From: Halanaerobiales bacterium
Lineage (GTDB): Bacteria > Bacillota > Halanaerobiia > Halanaerobiales > DTU029
DNA length: 64,000 bases
Assembly (NCBI GenBank): GCA_029981855.1
Contig: JARRCS010000007.1
Location: forward strand, 1-64,000
Direction of reading: 5' to 3'
The notes under the pieces were generated by a model. That model did no database searches, had not been told where the DNA came from, and saw nothing but the letters and a program-made list of their open reading frames with translations. The stretch's first letter is position 1. The number at the start of each line of letters is the position of its first letter. Made by a program: the position numbers and the translations under genes. Shown piece by piece: positions 33,371-41,913 of this stretch.

Positions 33371-34771
33371 TTAATCGGCAAAGAAGACACTGTATGCCAG
33401 ATAGGTGTTATAAATATCAACCTTACTGGCCACCTCATAAGGGGAGTGCATCGAGAGGAGTGCCGGGCCACAGTCCAGCACATCCATATTATAATTGGCG
33501 AGAAACTGGGCAATGGTACCTCCCCCACCCTCATCTACCTTACCAAGCTCTCCTATCTGCCAGATAATACCACTCCGGTTAAAAAGGGAGCGTATCTTGC
33601 CCATAAACTCAGCAGTAGCCTCAGAAGCCCCTGCTTTACCGCGGGCTCCGGTGTATTTGGTCAAAACAACACCCTTCCCCAGATAGGCAGAATTATTTTT
33701 GGCATAAACATCGGCAAAATTGGGGTCAAAAGCAGCATTAACATCGGCTGATAGGGCCTGGGAGTTTTCAATTATCTTACGTAGGATAAACTCACTATAC
33801 TCTTCATTACTTAGATTCAATATCTCGGCAACCGTATTTTCAAAGAAGTGTGACTGCATACCGGTGCTGCCCATACTCCCTATCTCTTCCTTATCAACCA
33901 GCAGAACCATAGCAGTATGAGCTGGTTTCTCTGTATCAATGATCGCCCTGAGGGCCGTATAACTACAGACCCTATCATCCTGTCCGTAACCAGCCAGCAG
34001 TCCCCGGTCAAAACCTACATCCCTCGTCCTTAAAGCTGGTACAATCTCCAGGTCAGCACTTATCAGGTCTTCCCCGGTAATTCCGTATTTCTCCTTGAGC
34101 AGAGAAAGGATTGCCGCCTTAACTGTCTCCTTCTCCTGCTCCCCCTCCTTATCCTTCTTTTTAGAAGGAATACTACCAATCACCAGATTTAGCTGCTCTC
34201 CGGTAATCCCTTCACTCATCTTCTTTTCCATCTGCTTCTTGCCCAGATGGGGTAAGATATCACTTATGTAGAATACCGGGTCATCTTCCTCCTCCCCAAG
34301 CCGTATCTCTACTTTACTTCCATCCTCTTTAACAATAACACCGTGCAGGGCAAGAGGAATACTGACCCATTGGTACTTCTTAATTCCACCATAATAGTGG
34401 GTATTAAAAAAGGCCAATCCTCCATCTTCATACAGGGGATTGGGTTTTAAATCTATACGGGGAGAATCAATATGGGCCCCGACAATATGCAGACCATCAC
34501 TCAAAGGTTTCTCTCCGATAATAGCAACAATGATTGCCTTTTCCCGGTTAACTTTATAAACCCTGTCTCCTGCTTTTAAAGAAGATAGTTCATCTAGATT
34601 CTTAAACCCCTCTGTTTCTAGAAGTTCTACCGAAGCCCTGATAAATTCCCTCTCCGTCTTGTTGGCTGTTAAAAAATCAGCATATTCCTGATTAAAGGTA
34701 AAGATCTCTTCAATCTCAACATCCTCCATCTCCAACCAGCCGTTCTTAGGTTCATATCCCTTTTCTCCCAT
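33371..34771 (-). CDS. M18-family aminopeptidase
   Basis: A 466-residue metallo-aminopeptidase of the M18 (aspartyl aminopeptidase) type: HIVGAHIDSPRIDLKPNPLY (zinc His and Asp), GYGQDDRVCSYTALRA (bridging Asp), VDKEEIGSMGSTG (catalytic Glu) and the C-terminal MHSPYEVASKVD His ligand. M18 enzymes act as large oligomers removing acidic or other N-terminal residues. Monocistronic, with SD AAGGAGG and its own terminator. Confidence 0.92.
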   Translation of the reverse strand: MGEKGYEPKNGWLEMEDVEIEEIFTFNQEYADFLTANKTEREFIRASVELLETEGFKNLDELSSLKAGDRVYKVNREKAIIVAIIGEKPLSDGLHIVGAHIDSPRIDLKPNPLYEDGGLAFFNTHYYGGIKKYQWVSIPLALHGVIVKEDGSKVEIRLGEEEDDPVFYISDILPHLGKKQMEKKMSEGITGEQLNLVIGSIPSKKKDKEGEQEKETVKAAILSLLKEKYGITGEDLISADLEIVPALRTRDVGFDRGLLAGYGQDDRVCSYTALRAIIDTEKPAHTAMVLLVDKEEIGSMGSTGMQSHFFENTVAEILNLSNEEYSEFILRKIIENSQALSADVNAAFDPNFADVYAKNNSAYLGKGVVLTKYTGARGKAGASEATAEFMGKIRSLFNRSGIIWQIGELGKVDEGGGGTIAQFLANYNMDVLDCGPALLSMHSPYEVASKVDIYNTYLAYSVFFAD

Positions 34772-34824: not shown

Positions 34825-34863
34825 AGAAAAAAAAGAAGGACTACAGCCTGCCCGCTGTAATCC
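34825..34863 (-). terminator. Terminator of the cyclase-fecR-crp-coiled-coil unit
   Basis: Minus strand GGATTACAG CGGGCAGG CTGTAGTCC followed by TTCTTTTTTTT, about 35 bp past the stop of the acidic protein gene. Confidence 0.75.
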
Positions 34864-34897
34864 CCCGGATTTTTAATATATATCTATCCTGTCCGGC

Positions 34898-35767
34898 CTA
34901 TTCCTCATCGTCCTCTTCTTGACCCTTAGAATTACCACCAGAGTCACCCTGTGAATTATCATCATCTGAGTCATTTTCATCATCATCATTATCCTGATGC
35001 TTATGCTCACTAGCTTTTTCTTTCATTCTTTCGGCCATTTCTTTAGCCTTTTCCGCCTTCTCTTCGGCTTTATTCAACGCCTTTTCCGCCTTATCTGCAA
35101 ACTTCTCTGCGGCTTTCTTAAGTCCCTTCTCTTCCATCTCTTCAGCCTTTTCTTCAGCTTTCTCCGCCTTCTCTTCGGCCTTTTCCAGTATTCTTTCGGC
35201 CTTTTCCTCAAATTTCTCCGCGGCCTTCTCTAAGGCCTCTTCCCTATCTTCATCTCCTTTCTCCTGCCGGATAGCCCCTATTGCCTCTTCCAACTGCTCC
35301 CTATCCTGATTCATTTCCCTATTCTGCAGCAACTCTCTCAGCTCAGCACCACTTACTCCTTCTGCAAAGGCTTCATTAATCAGCTCAATTATTTTCTCCT
35401 GCTCTTCTGGTTCCTTCCCCTCCAGGAGCCGGTCTATTACCTCCTCTTCCAGTCCCCTGATTCTGGCCGTTAACCTGAGCTGAATTCTCTCTGCCGATCT
35501 TACCTGTTCCTCTAATTGAATATGATCCAGTTCAGCCAGCACGTCCTCGATATCCAGCTGACTTTCGTGAATCATCTCCAGTAAATATTCCTGTAACTGC
35601 TGTTTTTCATCCTCATCTAACCCCTGAATACGGCTAATTTTTAGAGATAATTCAACGACCTGATCCATGGGATCGGAATTAACTGTACTATCCTCCGCCT
35701 GGATGGGATATTTAACTAAAGCAAGTAATAAGAATAAAACAAGGAAAATACCAACAGTCTTTTTCAT
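34898..35767 (-). CDS. Secreted acidic coiled-coil protein
   Basis: A 289-residue protein with a signal peptide (KTVGIFLVLFLLLALVKYPIQA), a helical N-terminal half, then a long Ala/Glu/Lys coiled coil with a repeating EKAEEKAEKAEEKAE pattern (residues about 170-255), and an acidic, Asp/Ser/Gly-rich tail ending EEDDEE. No enzyme motif is visible. It should act outside the cytoplasmic membrane. It is the last gene in a run with a CHASE2 cyclase, a FecR protein and a CRP-like regulator and ends at a terminator. The tail composition suits a salt-rich envelope; function unknown. Confidence 0.75.
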   Translation of the reverse strand: MKKTVGIFLVLFLLLALVKYPIQAEDSTVNSDPMDQVVELSLKISRIQGLDEDEKQQLQEYLLEMIHESQLDIEDVLAELDHIQLEEQVRSAERIQLRLTARIRGLEEEVIDRLLEGKEPEEQEKIIELINEAFAEGVSGAELRELLQNREMNQDREQLEEAIGAIRQEKGDEDREEALEKAAEKFEEKAERILEKAEEKAEKAEEKAEEMEEKGLKKAAEKFADKAEKALNKAEEKAEKAKEMAERMKEKASEHKHQDNDDDENDSDDDNSQGDSGGNSKGQEEDDEE

Positions 35768-35857
35768 TTATTGATCCCTCCTGATATATTTTTTAACCTA
35801 TTATTTTTTTGTTAAGCCTATATTATCACGTAAACGGGCCAAAAAATGTGATGGCCG

Positions 35858-36526
35858 TCACCAATTCTCAATCTTTTTGAGAATAAATTTATCCTTATCT
35901 ACCTCAATCAGCCCTTCAGACTCCAGCTTATTCATTACCCTGGTAACAGTCTCCCTTGATGTACCGATAAACTTGGCCAGCTGTTCATGGGTCAGACGCT
36001 CTATTAAAACCAATTCCTTTTCAAACTCACCATCCTTTTCAGCTCTGCGGATAAATAAATTTTTTAACCTGGTCTTTACATCAAGAAAGGCAAGATTTTC
36101 AATATCATTATTGGCCCGGCGCAGGCGGTGGCTTAATTCGACAATTATCCTCAGGGCAACCTCCGGATTTGTCTTAATCAAACTCAGAAAATCATCTTTT
36201 TCTAAGACCATTAAGCTGCTCTCTTTAGTAACCCGGGCTGTAGCCGAACGGCACCTGCCATCAACAATCCCCATCTCTCCAAAAAAATCACCCGCTTTCA
36301 TAATTTCCAAGAGTTTTTCCTTGCCCTCAACCGAGGGCTTAATTATCTGGACCTCACCAGAAATAACAATATAGAAAGCATCAGACAAATCACCTTCAAT
36401 AAACAGAATCTTTCCGGATTGATATTCCCTTATATGGGCTATCTCTCTGATCAAAGATATCTCTTCTCTGTTCAAACCTGAAAATAACGGAACATTACTG
36501 ATCGCAAAACCCTTTTGCCTAATCAT
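35858..36526 (-). CDS. CRP/FNR-family transcriptional regulator
   Basis: A 222-residue regulator: N-terminal cNMP-binding barrel with the phosphate-binding cassette GDFFGEMGIVDGRCRSATA (Gly-Glu and Arg-Ser-Ala in place as in cyclic-nucleotide binders), dimer helix, and a C-terminal winged helix RLTHEQLAKFIGTSRETVTRVMNKLESEGLI. The FNR Cys set is absent, so it is not an iron-sulfur sensor. It overlaps the FecR gene by 8 bp, downstream of a class III cyclase, so cAMP (or cGMP) is the likely ligand. Confidence 0.9.
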   Translation of the reverse strand: MIRQKGFAISNVPLFSGLNREEISLIREIAHIREYQSGKILFIEGDLSDAFYIVISGEVQIIKPSVEGKEKLLEIMKAGDFFGEMGIVDGRCRSATARVTKESSLMVLEKDDFLSLIKTNPEVALRIIVELSHRLRRANNDIENLAFLDVKTRLKNLFIRRAEKDGEFEKELVLIERLTHEQLAKFIGTSRETVTRVMNKLESEGLIEVDKDKFILKKIENW

Positions 36527-37493
36527 CGTTCGCTTCTTCCTCCATTGGTTTCATTGGCTGTTCATCAATATCTTCATCTTCTCCCTTCTCATCATCGTAC
36601 TTTTCTCTATCTTGATAATCTTTAACTTGCTTCCCGTGTTGACCATTCTTCTCATCACTTTTCTCATCCTGTTCACCATCTTCAACAAAATCCTCTTTAT
36701 GTTGCCCTTTCTCATCCTTCTCCCCATCTTCAATCTTTTCCTCGAATTTGTTATTTTCAACCTCCTCGATATCTTTATCCCCTTTTTTATCCTTTTGATG
36801 GTACCCGGAATGGATTTTTTCTCCCTTCTTGATCCATTCACTTACCTCCTTTTCCTCCCAGACTGCCGCTTCCTTTTCATCCATCTTCACCGGGGATGAA
36901 ATCCTGCCGGAACGGGCAATACTCATCTGATTGGTATTTACAATTATACCTTCCTTACCGGAAATAGCCTTAAATTCTACCTTTCCCTCCTTAACCGAAA
37001 GCAGGGTGGAATCCCCATCGGTAAAAACCGAAAACAGGGTACCCCTAACACCGGCAACTGCACTCGGGGTAATCACCTCAAAGCTGGTTATTTCCTGCCA
37101 GAGGTTTTTAAATCTAGCCCAGATTCTCCCGCTCTTCAGTCCTAGGGAAGAACCCCTGGATAAATTTTCTCCGATAATAATCTCACTCCCGGATGATACC
37201 TTAATAAAAATTTCCTTCCCTAAATAAAACTCCAGCCTGCCGTCACTTCCGGTCCTTATTCTATCCCCCGCCCTAATTACGTCCCTGCTAGTAAGCTGTT
37301 GCCACCTCTCTATCCGAAATATACTTAGAAAGTGGCTGACATCCATCCGCTCAACGCTACCTGCGATATGGGTAATATCTATCTGCGGACTATCCTTAAC
37401 CTGAAGAGAACCATTACCGGCCCCGGCTCCGCCCTTTACCAGGACGGTAATTAAGAAAAGAACCAGTAGAGTAAATAAGAATCTTTTCATCAC
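36519..37493 (-). CDS. FecR-domain secreted protein with acidic repetitive tail
   Basis: A 324-residue protein: signal peptide (FLFTLLVLFLITVLVKGGAGA), a FecR-type beta domain (GDRIRTGSDGRLEFYLGKEI, then VITPSAVAGVRGTLFSVFTDG and LLSVKEGKVEF), and a highly charged C-terminal third rich in Glu, Asp and Lys. FecR beta domains outside the membrane often pair with CHASE2 proteins. The stop overlaps the CRP-like gene, and its start overlaps the cyclase stop, so coupling is tight. It may present a signal to the CHASE2 sensor. Confidence 0.85.
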   Translation of the reverse strand: MMKRFLFTLLVLFLITVLVKGGAGAGNGSLQVKDSPQIDITHIAGSVERMDVSHFLSIFRIERWQQLTSRDVIRAGDRIRTGSDGRLEFYLGKEIFIKVSSGSEIIIGENLSRGSSLGLKSGRIWARFKNLWQEITSFEVITPSAVAGVRGTLFSVFTDGDSTLLSVKEGKVEFKAISGKEGIIVNTNQMSIARSGRISSPVKMDEKEAAVWEEKEVSEWIKKGEKIHSGYHQKDKKGDKDIEEVENNKFEEKIEDGEKDEKGQHKEDFVEDGEQDEKSDEKNGQHGKQVKDYQDREKYDDEKGEDEDIDEQPMKPMEEEANDD

Positions 37494-39223
37494 TACTCAC
37501 CCTCGTTTAAACGGTAATAAACTAAATCTTTATTAATTCCCTTTAAAAACCTCTGCTCTTTAATCCAGCCATAACCCTTGATAAATTCGGGTAAACTTAC
37601 GTATGTACTTTCGCCTACTATAATCTCCCCGGCCTTAGCCAGCTCAACAAATAGGGCTGCCTTATTTACTACATCCCCGATAACTGTATAATCCATCCTC
37701 TCCTTTGAACCGATATTCCCCACCAGAACCGGTCCTGAATTTATACCTGCCCCGAGCCTGAAGGGGAGTTCCCCTTTCATAGCCAGTTTCTGAATCTCCC
37801 TTGCCGCCAGCAGGGCCTTCCTGCTGTGATCAGCCACCGGAACAGGGGCGCCGAAAAAAGCCATCACCCCATCTCCCAGGTATTTGTCAAGTGTTCCTTT
37901 ATATTTGAAGATAATCCTGCTGATAGCAGTAAAGGTCCTGTTCAGGTTTACGACAACCTCTTCGGGACTTCTATTTTCTGCATAGGTGGTAAAATCTCGA
38001 ATATCTATAAATAAGACACTGACTGTAATCCGCTCTCCACCCAGTTTGACGGAATCAGGTTTTTTTAACAGTTCATCAATTAGCTCACCTGATAAATAGG
38101 GTGAGAAGGTATCAACCAGATACCTCTTCTCCTTTTCACTGAATAAATACCATCTGAGAAGACTGAAACCATAAAGAATAATTATAGTAATTACGGGTGT
38201 CAGCAGGTGATAATTAAGCCTGTAATAGTAGAAAATAACCAGGTTAAGGACGCAATAAAGGGTTATTGATAGTATCACAAGATAAGCAGACTTTTTCGCA
38301 GAAACCCTGGAAAAGATCATTATCTGGATCAGGGCAGTTAACAGTATGATTAAGAAATTACTAAAAAAGGATAAGTTATAGAAATAATCATTATTTAATA
38401 GACTTAGAACGGCCTGTCCGTTAATCTCTACCCCGTTAAGGTAACCATAACGGGAAAAGGGGGTCATATACCTGTCACCAACACCGGTAATAGCGGTACC
38501 GATTATGACCAGTTTATCCCGGAAAAAACCGTTACTAAAATTCCCTGATAAGAGATCGCTAAAGGAGAGATGGGGAATTGTCCCGGCCGGACCAGCAAAA
38601 CTCAACATAATACTTTCGTTTTTATATTTTAGCTCCCTGCCCAGGTACATCTCTGCCAGTTTCAAGCTGAAGGAAGGATAACTTACTTTCCCATCTTTAA
38701 AATATATAGGTAAGCTGCGGATAATTCCGTCCCGATCCGGCACAAAATTGATATGCCCTAATTCTACCTGATCAGCAAAAATCTTTAAAGGTCTGTTGAT
38801 CCCGGTAACCGTTATATCATCATTATGTAAAGCCCTCTTCAAGTGAATTTTAGCCACTACCGGCAGAACAATATTATCGTATTTTGCTAAAAGTCGAGCC
38901 AGATCTCTATCAGTGTTTTGCTCTGATGGATCGGATAGGATTATATCTAGTCCGATAACCCCGGCCCCCTCTTCCTCTAGAATTTCTATAGCCTGTCCAT
39001 AATAGTACCTGGATATAGGCCATTGGCCCAGCTCCTGCAGGGAACTATCATCAATTACGACCAGGGCCAGGTTATCTACCCTGGGAGGGGTTACAAGGTA
39101 CCTGCTTATCAGTAACAGGTCATCCAACCTGTTTTCCAGCGGTAAAAATAGATTAAAGTAATTTAACAGCAAGATAATTCCCGTAATAATCAAATATGGG
39201 GTTACCCTTTTAGAATCTAACAT
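37493..39223 (-). CDS. CHASE2-domain class III adenylate/guanylate cyclase
   Basis: A 576-residue protein: one N-terminal helix, an extracytoplasmic CHASE2 domain (residues about 30-275, with LALVVIDDSSLQELGQWP and GHINFVPDRDGIIRSLP), three membrane helices (about 285-355), and a cyclase domain (about 395-570). Metal Asp residues D407 (FIDIRDF) and D451 (LGDG) and Lys447 are present, as is Asn520 (GDVVN). The transition-state Arg that should follow (NxAAR) is Leu524 (NKAALFVE). Activity may therefore be low or need a partner. It heads the four-gene unit, behind a TTGCTT/TATAAT promoter. Confidence 0.92.
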   Translation of the reverse strand: MLDSKRVTPYLIITGIILLLNYFNLFLPLENRLDDLLLISRYLVTPPRVDNLALVVIDDSSLQELGQWPISRYYYGQAIEILEEEGAGVIGLDIILSDPSEQNTDRDLARLLAKYDNIVLPVVAKIHLKRALHNDDITVTGINRPLKIFADQVELGHINFVPDRDGIIRSLPIYFKDGKVSYPSFSLKLAEMYLGRELKYKNESIMLSFAGPAGTIPHLSFSDLLSGNFSNGFFRDKLVIIGTAITGVGDRYMTPFSRYGYLNGVEINGQAVLSLLNNDYFYNLSFFSNFLIILLTALIQIMIFSRVSAKKSAYLVILSITLYCVLNLVIFYYYRLNYHLLTPVITIIILYGFSLLRWYLFSEKEKRYLVDTFSPYLSGELIDELLKKPDSVKLGGERITVSVLFIDIRDFTTYAENRSPEEVVVNLNRTFTAISRIIFKYKGTLDKYLGDGVMAFFGAPVPVADHSRKALLAAREIQKLAMKGELPFRLGAGINSGPVLVGNIGSKERMDYTVIGDVVNKAALFVELAKAGEIIVGESTYVSLPEFIKGYGWIKEQRFLKGINKDLVYYRLNEGE

Positions 39224-39242: not shown

Positions 39243-39272
39243 ATTATAGCACGTTAAAGAATTTAAAAGCAA
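39243..39272 (-). promoter_or_regulatory. Promoter of the CHASE2 cyclase unit
   Basis: Minus strand TTGCTT (39267-39272) and TATAAT (39243-39248), spacer 18. It diverges from the ccdA promoter about 60 bp away. Confidence 0.6.
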
Positions 39273-39372: not shown

Positions 39373-40050
39373 ATGAATCCTGACATTTCCATCTATATTG
39401 CCTTTGGTGCAGGTCTTTTATCCTTCCTTTCCCCCTGTGTACTACCTTTAATCCCTTCTTATCTTACCCTGCTGGTAGGGGATTTTGCAGAACAGAAGGG
39501 TAGGAGATACATAATACTCCCTGCCCTAACCTTTATTACAGGTTTCACAGTTATTTTTATTCTTCTGGGAATGTCTGCCTCTCTCTTAGGCCAGTTTCTC
39601 TTAAAAAACCTGGTACTTTTTAGAAAGATCAGCGGGATTATTGTTGTTATCCTGGGGCTGCACCTGACCGGAGTTATAAAAATTAGGGCCCTTTATCAGA
39701 AAAAGGGATTACAGATATCAGCTAGTTTTAATAAGTATCTACGTGCCCTGATTATGGGGTTTGCCCTGGCCCTGGCCTGGACCCCCTGTATCGGCCCCAT
39801 CCTTTCCTCAATCCTGATTTATGCCGGGACCAGTCAGACGGTACTTCAAGGAAGTATCTTACTGGCTTTCTACTCCCTGGGCTTTGCCCTGCCTTTTCTT
39901 TTAACTGCTCTTTTCCTGAACTGGATTTTACCACGTTTCAAAAAAATTAACCCCTATCTGAATCTGATTCAGACCATTACCGGGGTACTGGTAATTATTC
40001 TGGGTATTATAATCTACTTTAATTATTTTCAGGCCTTAAGCTTATACTGA
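39373..40050 (+). CDS. ccdA: CcdA-type transmembrane thiol-disulfide transporter
   Basis: A 225-residue protein with six membrane helices and the two conserved Cys motifs LSFLSPCVLPLIPSY (helix 1) and ALAWTPCIGPILSS (helix 4). CcdA carries reducing power from cytoplasmic thioredoxin across the membrane to extracytoplasmic thiol proteins. The next gene, 14 bp on, encodes such a partner. Confidence 0.92.
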   Translation: MNPDISIYIAFGAGLLSFLSPCVLPLIPSYLTLLVGDFAEQKGRRYIILPALTFITGFTVIFILLGMSASLLGQFLLKNLVLFRKISGIIVVILGLHLTGVIKIRALYQKKGLQISASFNKYLRALIMGFALALAWTPCIGPILSSILIYAGTSQTVLQGSILLAFYSLGFALPFLLTALFLNWILPRFKKINPYLNLIQTITGVLVIILGIIIYFNYFQALSLY

Positions 40051-40064
40051 TAGGAGGGATATCT

Positions 40065-40589
40065 TTGAAAAAGATTTACTGGGTAACTTTACTAGTAATT
40101 ATCTTAGTAGCCGGTCTAATAAGTTTTCAAACCAGGATATGGCCCTTAAAGAGAAGTAATGTAGAAGATATTGAAATCGGAACCAATGTGGGTCAGAAGG
40201 CACCTGATTTTACTTTAAAAACATTAAAGGGGGAAAGTGTATCTTTAAGCAACTTGAAGGGGAAGAAGGTATTTCTCAATTTCTGGGCCTCCTGGTGCCC
40301 TCCCTGTAGAAGTGAGATGCCGGCTATCCAGAAACTATACTCTAATCATGATGATATCGCGGTTTTAGGGATTAACCTGAGGGAAGAAAAGGGTACGGTA
40401 GCTGAATTTATGATGTTAAATGGCTACACTTTTCCGGTTGTGCTTGATCTTAATGCAGAAGTCGCCACAAAATATCTGGTTCGCGGCATCCCCACAACCT
40501 ATATCCTCAATAAAGAGGGTGTCATTATGGCCAAACATACTGGCCCATTAACCTATGAACAGATGTTAGAGATGATGGAAATTGAATAA
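40065..40589 (+). CDS. TlpA/ResA-like membrane-anchored thioredoxin
   Basis: A 174-residue protein with an N-terminal anchor (IYWVTLLVIILVAGLISF) and a TlpA fold: GQKAPDFTLKTLKGESVSLS, the active site FWASWCPPCRSEMPAI (near residue 80), and VRGIPTTYILNKEG (cis-Pro). It starts at TTG behind GGAGGG. It receives electrons from CcdA and reduces extracytoplasmic disulfides (cytochrome or spore proteins in relatives). It ends at a strong two-way terminator. Confidence 0.92.
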   Translation: MKKIYWVTLLVIILVAGLISFQTRIWPLKRSNVEDIEIGTNVGQKAPDFTLKTLKGESVSLSNLKGKKVFLNFWASWCPPCRSEMPAIQKLYSNHDDIAVLGINLREEKGTVAEFMMLNGYTFPVVLDLNAEVATKYLVRGIPTTYILNKEGVIMAKHTGPLTYEQMLEMMEIE

Positions 40590-41325: not shown

Positions 41326-41913
41326 TTAAAACCAGGGGCACCTCCCCATCATGTCCGGGTGGTAAAAACGGTTGAATCCTCCGGGCCTGTTAAAACCATC
41401 GGGACCGTTCCAACCCCTCATACCAAAACCTGGTCTGCCGAAACCTCCCCTAAAGCCGTAATAACCAGCATCATTTTCATCAAAATATGATTTCACCTTC
41501 TCCAGCTGTTCCTCGGTCAATATCCCCTTTAAATTTTCCCACTGCTGTAGCCGCAACTCATTCAGCTGCTCGCTTAAGCTATTAATCTCATCCATGACTT
41601 TATTGATTTCGACCTCGGTAGCATCGGACAGGCTCAGTTTCCTCAATTCATACTGCTTATTACGCAGTTCATCAATTAAATCGTTCCTTTTGGCAAAAAA
41701 GTCTTTCTGGATTTTCAGGAACTCTTCCTGCTGTTCTTCAGTCAGACCCAGGGGATTATCATTATAGGGCTGATTTCCCCAGTAAGGCCGCTGATAATTA
41801 AAGTTGTTAAATCCGGGACCTCTCATACCAAAACCACCGTAAGCCAGACCGATGGAACTAAAACCAAGAACTACCAGACCTAAAACCAGCAAAACCGTAA
41901 CAGCTTTTCTCAA
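41326..41913 (-). CDS. Spy/CpxP-like secreted protein
   Basis: A 195-residue protein with a signal peptide (AVTVLLVLGLVVLGFSSIGLA), a Gly/Phe/Asn-rich N-terminal part, a helical LTxxQ region (GLTEEQQEEFLKIQ and ILTEEQLEKVKSY), and a Gly/Arg/Phe-rich C terminus. The LTxxQ motifs mark the Spy/CpxP chaperone or zinc-resistance family. It should act outside the cytoplasmic membrane, fitting a diderm cell. It appears monocistronic. Confidence 0.8.
   Translation of the reverse strand: MRKAVTVLLVLGLVVLGFSSIGLAYGGFGMRGPGFNNFNYQRPYWGNQPYNDNPLGLTEEQQEEFLKIQKDFFAKRNDLIDELRNKQYELRKLSLSDATEVEINKVMDEINSLSEQLNELRLQQWENLKGILTEEQLEKVKSYFDENDAGYYGFRGGFGRPGFGMRGWNGPDGFNRPGGFNRFYHPDMMGRCPWF

Follow-up and report, generated by a model that had tools for sequence, protein, structure and literature searches.

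A four-gene CHASE2 cyclase, FecR and CRP locus in a Halanaerobiales bacterium, with a predicted operator for its own secreted-protein gene

The window analyzed here is a stretch of 64,000 nucleotides (positions 1 to 64,000 of contig JARRCS010000007.1, assembly GCA_029981855.1) from a Halanaerobiales bacterium. It contains four leftward genes, which encode a CHASE2 receptor with a class III nucleotide cyclase domain, an exported FecR-domain protein, a regulator of the CRP family (crp) and a secreted acidic coiled-coil protein (gene 4; Table 1). We consider it likely, though by no means certain, that these genes constitute a local relay, in which a cyclic AMP (cAMP) signal gated by CHASE2 and FecR activates the secreted-protein target gene of the same locus. 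An original prediction, made from the letters alone, had described a self-contained cAMP circuit of four genes with overlaps or short gaps between one promoter and one terminator. The open reading frames (ORFs) and the terminator were both confirmed; the cyclase and FecR genes overlap by 1 base and the FecR and crp genes by 8 bases, while 90 bases separate crp from gene 4. The four genes are real and are not a chance neighborhood.

Table 1. Features of the CHASE2 cyclase-FecR-CRP locus and its flanks (window positions).
Feature	Position	Strand	Basis
CHASE2-class III nucleotide cyclase, 576 aa	37493-39223	-	ORF list and Pfam
CHASE2 sensor domain, extracytoplasmic	38327-39181	-	Pfam, E 8.8e-50
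Class III cyclase domain	37589-38026	-	Pfam Guanylate_cyc and catalytic residues (metal Asp, substrate Lys/Thr, Asn)
Codon 524, CTA (Leu), at the transition-state Arg position	37652-37654	-	Cyclase alignment
Exported FecR-domain protein with acidic tail, 324 aa	36519-37493	-	Pfam, E 1.1e-14; AlphaFold/Foldseek
CRP-family regulator of the dedicated clade, 222 aa	35858-36526	-	Pfam, profile scan
Predicted CRP-type operator GGTGACGGCCATCACA, left half over the last Trp codon and stop of crp	35847-35862	.	Pattern searches; counterpart in G031, G007 and G036
Predicted gene 4 promoter -10, TAATAT, at offset 30-35 from the operator centre	35820-35825	-	Inferred promoter
Gene 4: 289-aa secreted acidic coiled-coil protein, all-helical; predicted CRP target	34898-35767	-	
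Intrinsic terminator 3' of gene 4	34835-34866	-	Strong hairpin: 13 pairs, then T run
Cyclase-FecR-CRP promoter, likely extended -10 (TGcTATAAT)	39243-39248	-	Inference by eye; not in promoter scan list
M18 aminopeptidase gene and CcdA-ResA pair flanking the module	33371-34771 and 39373-40589		

The cyclase is the sole PF00211 protein of the 2.59-Mb genome, and its Pfam matches place CHASE2 at residues 15-299 and Guanylate_cyc (2e-20) at residues 400-545. One hydrophobic stretch (residues 7-30) lies ahead of CHASE2 and another of about three segments (281-362) lies beyond it; the domain is thus flanked by N-terminal and later membrane segments, which is the layout of CHASE2 receptors. The second protein, which carries the FecR domain (PF04773), was modeled by AlphaFold with a mean pLDDT (predicted local distance difference test) of 61, higher in the core, and Foldseek matched the model to the FecR-type domain of the anti-sigma proteins PupR and BDI_1681 at E about 5e-5. 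By this model the fold suits protein-protein signaling between membranes, most simply with CHASE2. The gene 4 protein gave an all-helical model (mean pLDDT 74.6) and no Pfam family above cut-off, and no PDB chain matched the profile of either this protein or FecR by sequence. A secreted protein of genome G038 that had been considered as a gene 4 homologue was rejected (hhalign probability 1%). Both the FecR and the coiled-coil protein had been predicted to be exported and highly charged, in agreement with N-terminal hydrophobic segments that fit export and with an excess of acidic residues (D/E 47 versus K/R 23 in the FecR tail, 86 versus 43 in the coiled-coil protein). Halanaerobiales are described as possessing a lipopolysaccharide outer membrane (PMC5007114), and the exported proteins are thus most likely periplasmic or located in the outer membrane. 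The regulator has the CRP/FNR architecture, with cNMP_binding (7e-25) followed by a Crp helix-turn-helix (1e-13). Its phosphate cassette GE...RSA (G83-E84, R93-S94-A95), the RSA part of which had already been pointed out, is invariant in all five orthologues, and its recognition helix, SRETV.R, matches that of E. coli CRP, which is in keeping with a GTGA half-site.

The gene set recurs both within the order and at distant loci, which rejects chance clustering and bears out the expectation that it would be found in other genomes. Among 38 genomes of the order (genomes are given G numbers and loci L numbers), 13 matched the cyclase and 10 the FecR protein. The cyclase, FecR and CRP genes are consecutive in five of them, namely the window genome, G031, G007, G005 and G036, with cyclases of the other four 50-33% identical to that of the window. 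The coiled-coil gene joins the module in every one of these except G005. A profile of the CRP gave E values of 1e-97 or better in exactly the five module genomes, the best of the other 33 being 1.5e-56, and all five CRPs of this clade adjoin the cyclase; by this computation the clade appears dedicated, or private, to the module within the order. Across the phylum the cyclase profile matched 34 of 199 genomes, including that of the window, and the view that cAMP signaling is rare in Firmicutes is therefore only partly right. Neighborhoods were fetched for 19 of the 33 non-window genomes with a match, all 19 of them outside the order. Five of these loci carry cyclase-FecR-CRP (G076, G186, G213, G207 and G038), G062 carries cyclase-CRP, and in four others FecR lies beside the cyclase or one gene from it; G149 (L095) was not counted, as another ORF lies between its cyclase and the nearby CRP gene. 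A further full module, in G235, was found by way of the DUF4382 genes discussed below. Scanning named genomes with single sequences gave no module match, and the profile scan gave four loci. A DegS-like histidine kinase gene lies 3' of crp in G076, G062 and G207 (L085, L089 and L100), and a gene of similar appearance, judged by the start of its sequence only, lies near a DUF4382 gene in G186 (L193).

The window crp gene ends in TGG TGA (Trp-stop), and the same bases open the palindrome GGTGA-CGGCCA-TCACA. With respect to the crp stop, palindromes are in the identical position in G031 (GGTGA-TGAAGG-TCACT) and G007 (GGTGA-TGGCTG-TCACA), such that operator and Trp-stop overlap in three genomes, and the crp end of G036 carries a form with one mismatch (TGTGA-CAATCA-TTACA). 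No palindrome was found at the junction in G005, where crp ends in Trp-TAG and there is no coiled-coil gene. As the predicted operator lies over the Trp-stop, the end of the protein and the regulatory site are under mutual constraint. Coding could explain retention of the left half, but not that of the right half, which is outside crp. Gene 4 is also preceded by its own ribosome-binding site. Because the 90-base gap holds the palindrome, a -10 hexamer at class II spacing and this ribosome-binding site, gene 4 is most likely transcribed from a separate, regulated promoter, and the single promoter proposed in the original prediction is probably wrong. The operator gives the putative circuit an output, which had been missed, as had the loss of a catalytic arginine discussed below.

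Counts of the motif do not carry this argument. In the window genome (G000) we counted 10 distinct matches to the two strong forms of the pattern, and the junction site is the sole intergenic one upstream of a gene. A large regulon was rejected for this genome, with 9 matches to GGTGA-N6-TCAC versus 4 in the reversed control; the corresponding figures are 14 versus 10 in G007 and 8 versus 3 in G031, and TGTGA-N6-TCACW gave 3 versus 1 in G000. Matches with two mismatches number 18 in the 64-kb window against a shuffle mean of 17.6, thus a lone weak match in the window carries no meaning. The argument for the operator rests on its conserved position and on the spacing of the -10 hexamer.

Class II promoters activated by E. 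coli CRP have an operator centre close to -41.5, so that the -10 hexamer occupies bases 30-35 counted from it. We compared 14 sites, and the best -10-like hexamer within offsets 29-32 from the centre fell at 30 in 11 sites and at 31 in the remaining 3; in the window it is TAATAT at offset 30, and at one site, that of the second DUF4382 gene of G186, only a weak -10 is present. The mean -10 score is highest at offset 30, and the observed mean was not reached in any of 20,000 shuffles (0 of 5,000 in an earlier run with 8 sites). The sites were chosen for the palindrome and not for the -10, two extra sites of G031 by pattern search and the others by promoter inspection; the sample is non-random and includes related, non-independent genomes (G235, G237, G239 and G240). 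No other single argument speaks as strongly as this spacing for the palindromes being activator sites rather than chance matches.

The two extra sites in G031 are intergenic and not Rex-like, and lie before a polysaccharide-export (SLBB/Poly_export) gene and before a gene for a DUF4382 lipoprotein. DUF4382 was matched 16 times in 15 of 59 genomes of the class. Its gene adjoins crp in G213 and a FecR gene in G240, and in G235 it is divergent from the module with a perfect TGTGAGCTGGGTCACA in between. When palindromes with at most one mismatch were sought within 350 bases upstream, 7 of the 15 DUF4382 genes scored had a site (G031, G186 twice, G235, G237, G239 and G240); the gene of G025 was left out for want of a start. 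The window genome itself gave no DUF4382 or Poly_export match, and a one-mismatch palindrome near polysaccharide genes of G186 (L195) was dropped because it lies inside an ORF. Hydrogenase-like and NuoE-like genes of G031 (L148, L152 and L160; names guessed from the starts of the sequences) are also preceded, at 26-62 bases, by TGTGA-N6-TCACW palindromes, which we take to be look-alikes, probably operators of Rex.

The computed evidence consists of the four genes and their recurrence, the CRP clade dedicated to the module, the palindromes and their class II spacing, and the relay proposed on this basis would run as follows. The inner-membrane CHASE2 cyclase, in presumed contact with its exported FecR partner, would sense conditions in the periplasm or envelope and make cAMP in the cytoplasm. 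The co-encoded CRP, once bound to its ligand, most likely cAMP, would bind the GTGA-N6-TCAC palindrome at the end of its own gene and would activate, rather than repress, the class II promoter of gene 4, and thus production of the acidic helical protein that this gene encodes for secretion. The same arrangement would drive DUF4382 lipoproteins in relatives and, in G031, the polysaccharide-export gene. With Leu in place of the transition-state Arg, cAMP synthesis may be impaired or absent in this strain.

The observations that weigh against such a relay concern its enzyme, its sites and its ligand. Both metal-binding Asp residues are kept in the window cyclase (FIDIRDF and YLGDG), as is the ATP-specifying pair (K447 and T513), whereas the transition-state pair is incomplete, with Asn520 retained and Leu524 in place of Arg. 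The Arg is present in 25 of the 31 aligned cyclases; it is replaced by Leu in the window, by Lys in the module cyclase of G036 and by Glu in four cyclases that all come from one genus. This alignment omits three partial matches (G030, G032 and L042) and the cyclases of loci not fetched. In the one genus (G033, G034, G035 and G037; L030-L033) the cyclase also lacks the Asn and one metal Asp (Glu instead), no CRP gene adjoins it, and in G033 and G034 there is no FecR gene either, which shows, to judge from these residues and neighbors, a module in decay. The Asn-Arg pair was reportedly called essential in a mammalian cyclase in a 1997 study. Activity of the window cyclase is doubtful because of the Leu, and the enzyme may be weak, dead or compensated; Leu524 could also be a single-base assembly error. 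Longer CHASE2 cyclases (~670 aa) with intact catalytic residues lie beside FecR genes in G017 and G026 (L034/L035), with no CRP gene there.

A possible, if doubtful, explanation is that this strain has a broken relay: its cyclase would be turning into a dead sensor, the CRP would act ligand-free or be losing its role, and the locus would be the relic of a circuit that works in relatives. The substitution of the Arg with all other catalytic residues kept could be read in this way, as could the decay in the one genus. The cyclase being the only PF00211 protein of its genome also speaks for a broken relay, and the CRP-family protein TTHB099 is reported to bind DNA without cAMP (PMC7662524). Yet the four genes are open and well kept, together with the operator and the -10, and the residue in question hangs on one base of an assembled contig. 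Moreover, the class III cyclase Ma1120 is described as active without the partner Asn (PMC4215837), and therefore one loss in the Asn-Arg pair need not kill the enzyme. The self-contained circuit of the original prediction stands in outline, with overconfidence as to the cyclase of this strain.

Concerning the sites, the left half of the junction operator is partly fixed by coding. G001 has a gene 4 homologue (hhalign E 2.7e-16) with TGTGA-TGAAGC-TCACT upstream, although both the cyclase and the dedicated CRP are missing from this genome, and no site with at most one mismatch was found in the scanned module stretches of G186, G213, G062 and G005. Eight of the 15 scored DUF4382 genes have no site (G213, G251, G245, G250, G248, G249, G008 and G024); in G213 the DUF4382 gene adjoins a module and still lacks a site, which argues against a simple rule. 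Both sets extend beyond the genomes covered by the module search, which did not include the site-bearing G237, G239 and G240 or the site-free G245, G248, G249, G250 and G251; the cyclase search gave no match in G008 and G024. Furthermore, each of the five module genomes encodes two to five cNMP-domain proteins, and another regulator could use the palindromes.

That the palindromes serve such another regulator of the CRP/FNR family, with the dedicated CRP doing something else, is in our judgment quite unlikely. It would account for the site in G001, and GTGA-N6-TCAC is a generic CRP-type site for which the presumed Rex operators of G031 provide look-alikes. Against it, the sites cluster at the module, lying 3' of crp in the window genome, G031, G007, G036 and G038 and in the divergent region in G235, and no site is present in G005, where gene 4 is missing. 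In addition, seven genomes without the CRP clade have weaker gene-4-like genes and no site before them, the best candidates having 3-4 mismatches.

As to the ligand, Thr127 and Ser128 of E. coli CRP are adenine contacts, and the corresponding residues of the window CRP are Ala and Asn; the Ala is found in all five CRPs of the clade. The closest solved relative by sequence is 4ev0, which we take to be Thermus TTHB099, the protein noted above for binding DNA without cAMP. TTHB099 has also been called a class II activator, which the account cited (PMC7662524) disputes. Since the adenine contacts differ and TTHB099 needs no cAMP, the ligand of the window CRP is read from gene linkage. The best NCBIfam model for the protein is that of the cAMP-activated CRP, with a score far under cut-off. 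Cyclic GMP or another nucleotide as the messenger would suit the Ala at the Thr127 position and the Thr described at the second substrate site of some guanylate cyclases (PMC4215837), and is very improbable given the Lys/Thr pair, which is that of the solved bacterial CyaB (3r5g) and of nearly all relatives, together with the NCBIfam model just mentioned.

Among nine genomes of the order with a full-length cyclase of this type, the M18 aminopeptidase gene adjoins the module in eight, the exception being G007, and the CcdA-ResA pair is near it in seven. Further along the window, 41326-41913 encodes an exported protein with a weak likeness, under the curated cut-off, to the zinc-resistance chaperone ZraP.

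Several known systems resemble this locus in part. The CHASE2 cyclases of Sinorhizobium make cAMP and signal through Clr, a protein of the CRP family that is described as activating genes for exported proteins and polysaccharide synthesis (PMC13001267, PMC5498481). The CyaD1/CyaD2/CyaK-Clr system of Sinorhizobium meliloti likewise pairs CHASE2 cyclases with a CRP-family activator, and secreted and polysaccharide-export proteins are the predicted targets here. One Clr target, SMc02177, carries a FecR domain, so that FecR is a target there and a module partner here. As described, the Sinorhizobium system differs in that several cyclases act through one Clr, in its box (TGTT-N8-AACA) and in belonging to another phylum; for its outer-membrane receptor NsrA we found no counterpart in the window module. 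Most CHASE2 adenylate cyclases of Campylobacterota are reported to cluster with phosphodiesterase, FecR-domain and TPR proteins (PMC9239204), which is similar in that the genes for a CHASE2 cyclase and a FecR-domain protein are clustered. That cluster differs by its phosphodiesterase and TPR proteins, and the account gives no co-encoded CRP or target promoter. Among the four genes and the named close neighbors here we saw no phosphodiesterase or TPR protein, though no search was aimed at phosphodiesterases.

The predicted gene 4 promoter resembles class II promoters of E. coli CRP, which combine a centre about 41.5 bases before the start and a -10 at offset 30-35 with the same recognition-helix residues. 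Unlike E. coli CRP, the window regulator would be local and not global, its operator lies over its own stop codon, and the Thr127/Ser128 positions are Ala/Asn. The FecR protein shares its domain fold with the cell-surface signaling proteins FecR and PupR, but is an exported protein beside a cyclase and not an anti-sigma protein, with no adjacent sigma factor or TonB receptor gene seen. The window module works, on our reading, like the Sinorhizobium and Campylobacterota systems but unites sensor, partner, regulator and target in one place, and in another phylum. We found no report of this arrangement in searches of the literature on CHASE2, FecR and cyclases, on cAMP in Halanaerobiales or on class III cyclases of Clostridia. 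The suggestion that the circuit senses envelope or salt conditions is favored in its first part by the kind of target and by these precedents, and has no support in its second.

To our knowledge, no job is known for FecR proteins beside CHASE2 cyclases, and cAMP signaling has been little studied in these bacteria. Here about 4 kb suffices to follow the whole putative chain, from its sensor to its target promoter with a predicted operator. The sites also provide a first regulatory context for DUF4382 lipoproteins, a domain named, in the literature that we found, in a single study of archaeal glycoproteomics, and the window enzyme lends itself to asking whether the transition-state Arg is dispensable in a class III cyclase. 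A bolder proposal, which we put forward tentatively and regard as rather unlikely to hold in full, is that the locus represents a portable envelope module of diderm Bacillota and their kin. It would consist of a CHASE2/FecR-gated cyclase, a private CRP and a small travelling class II regulon for secreted proteins, and would still work here without the canonical Arg.

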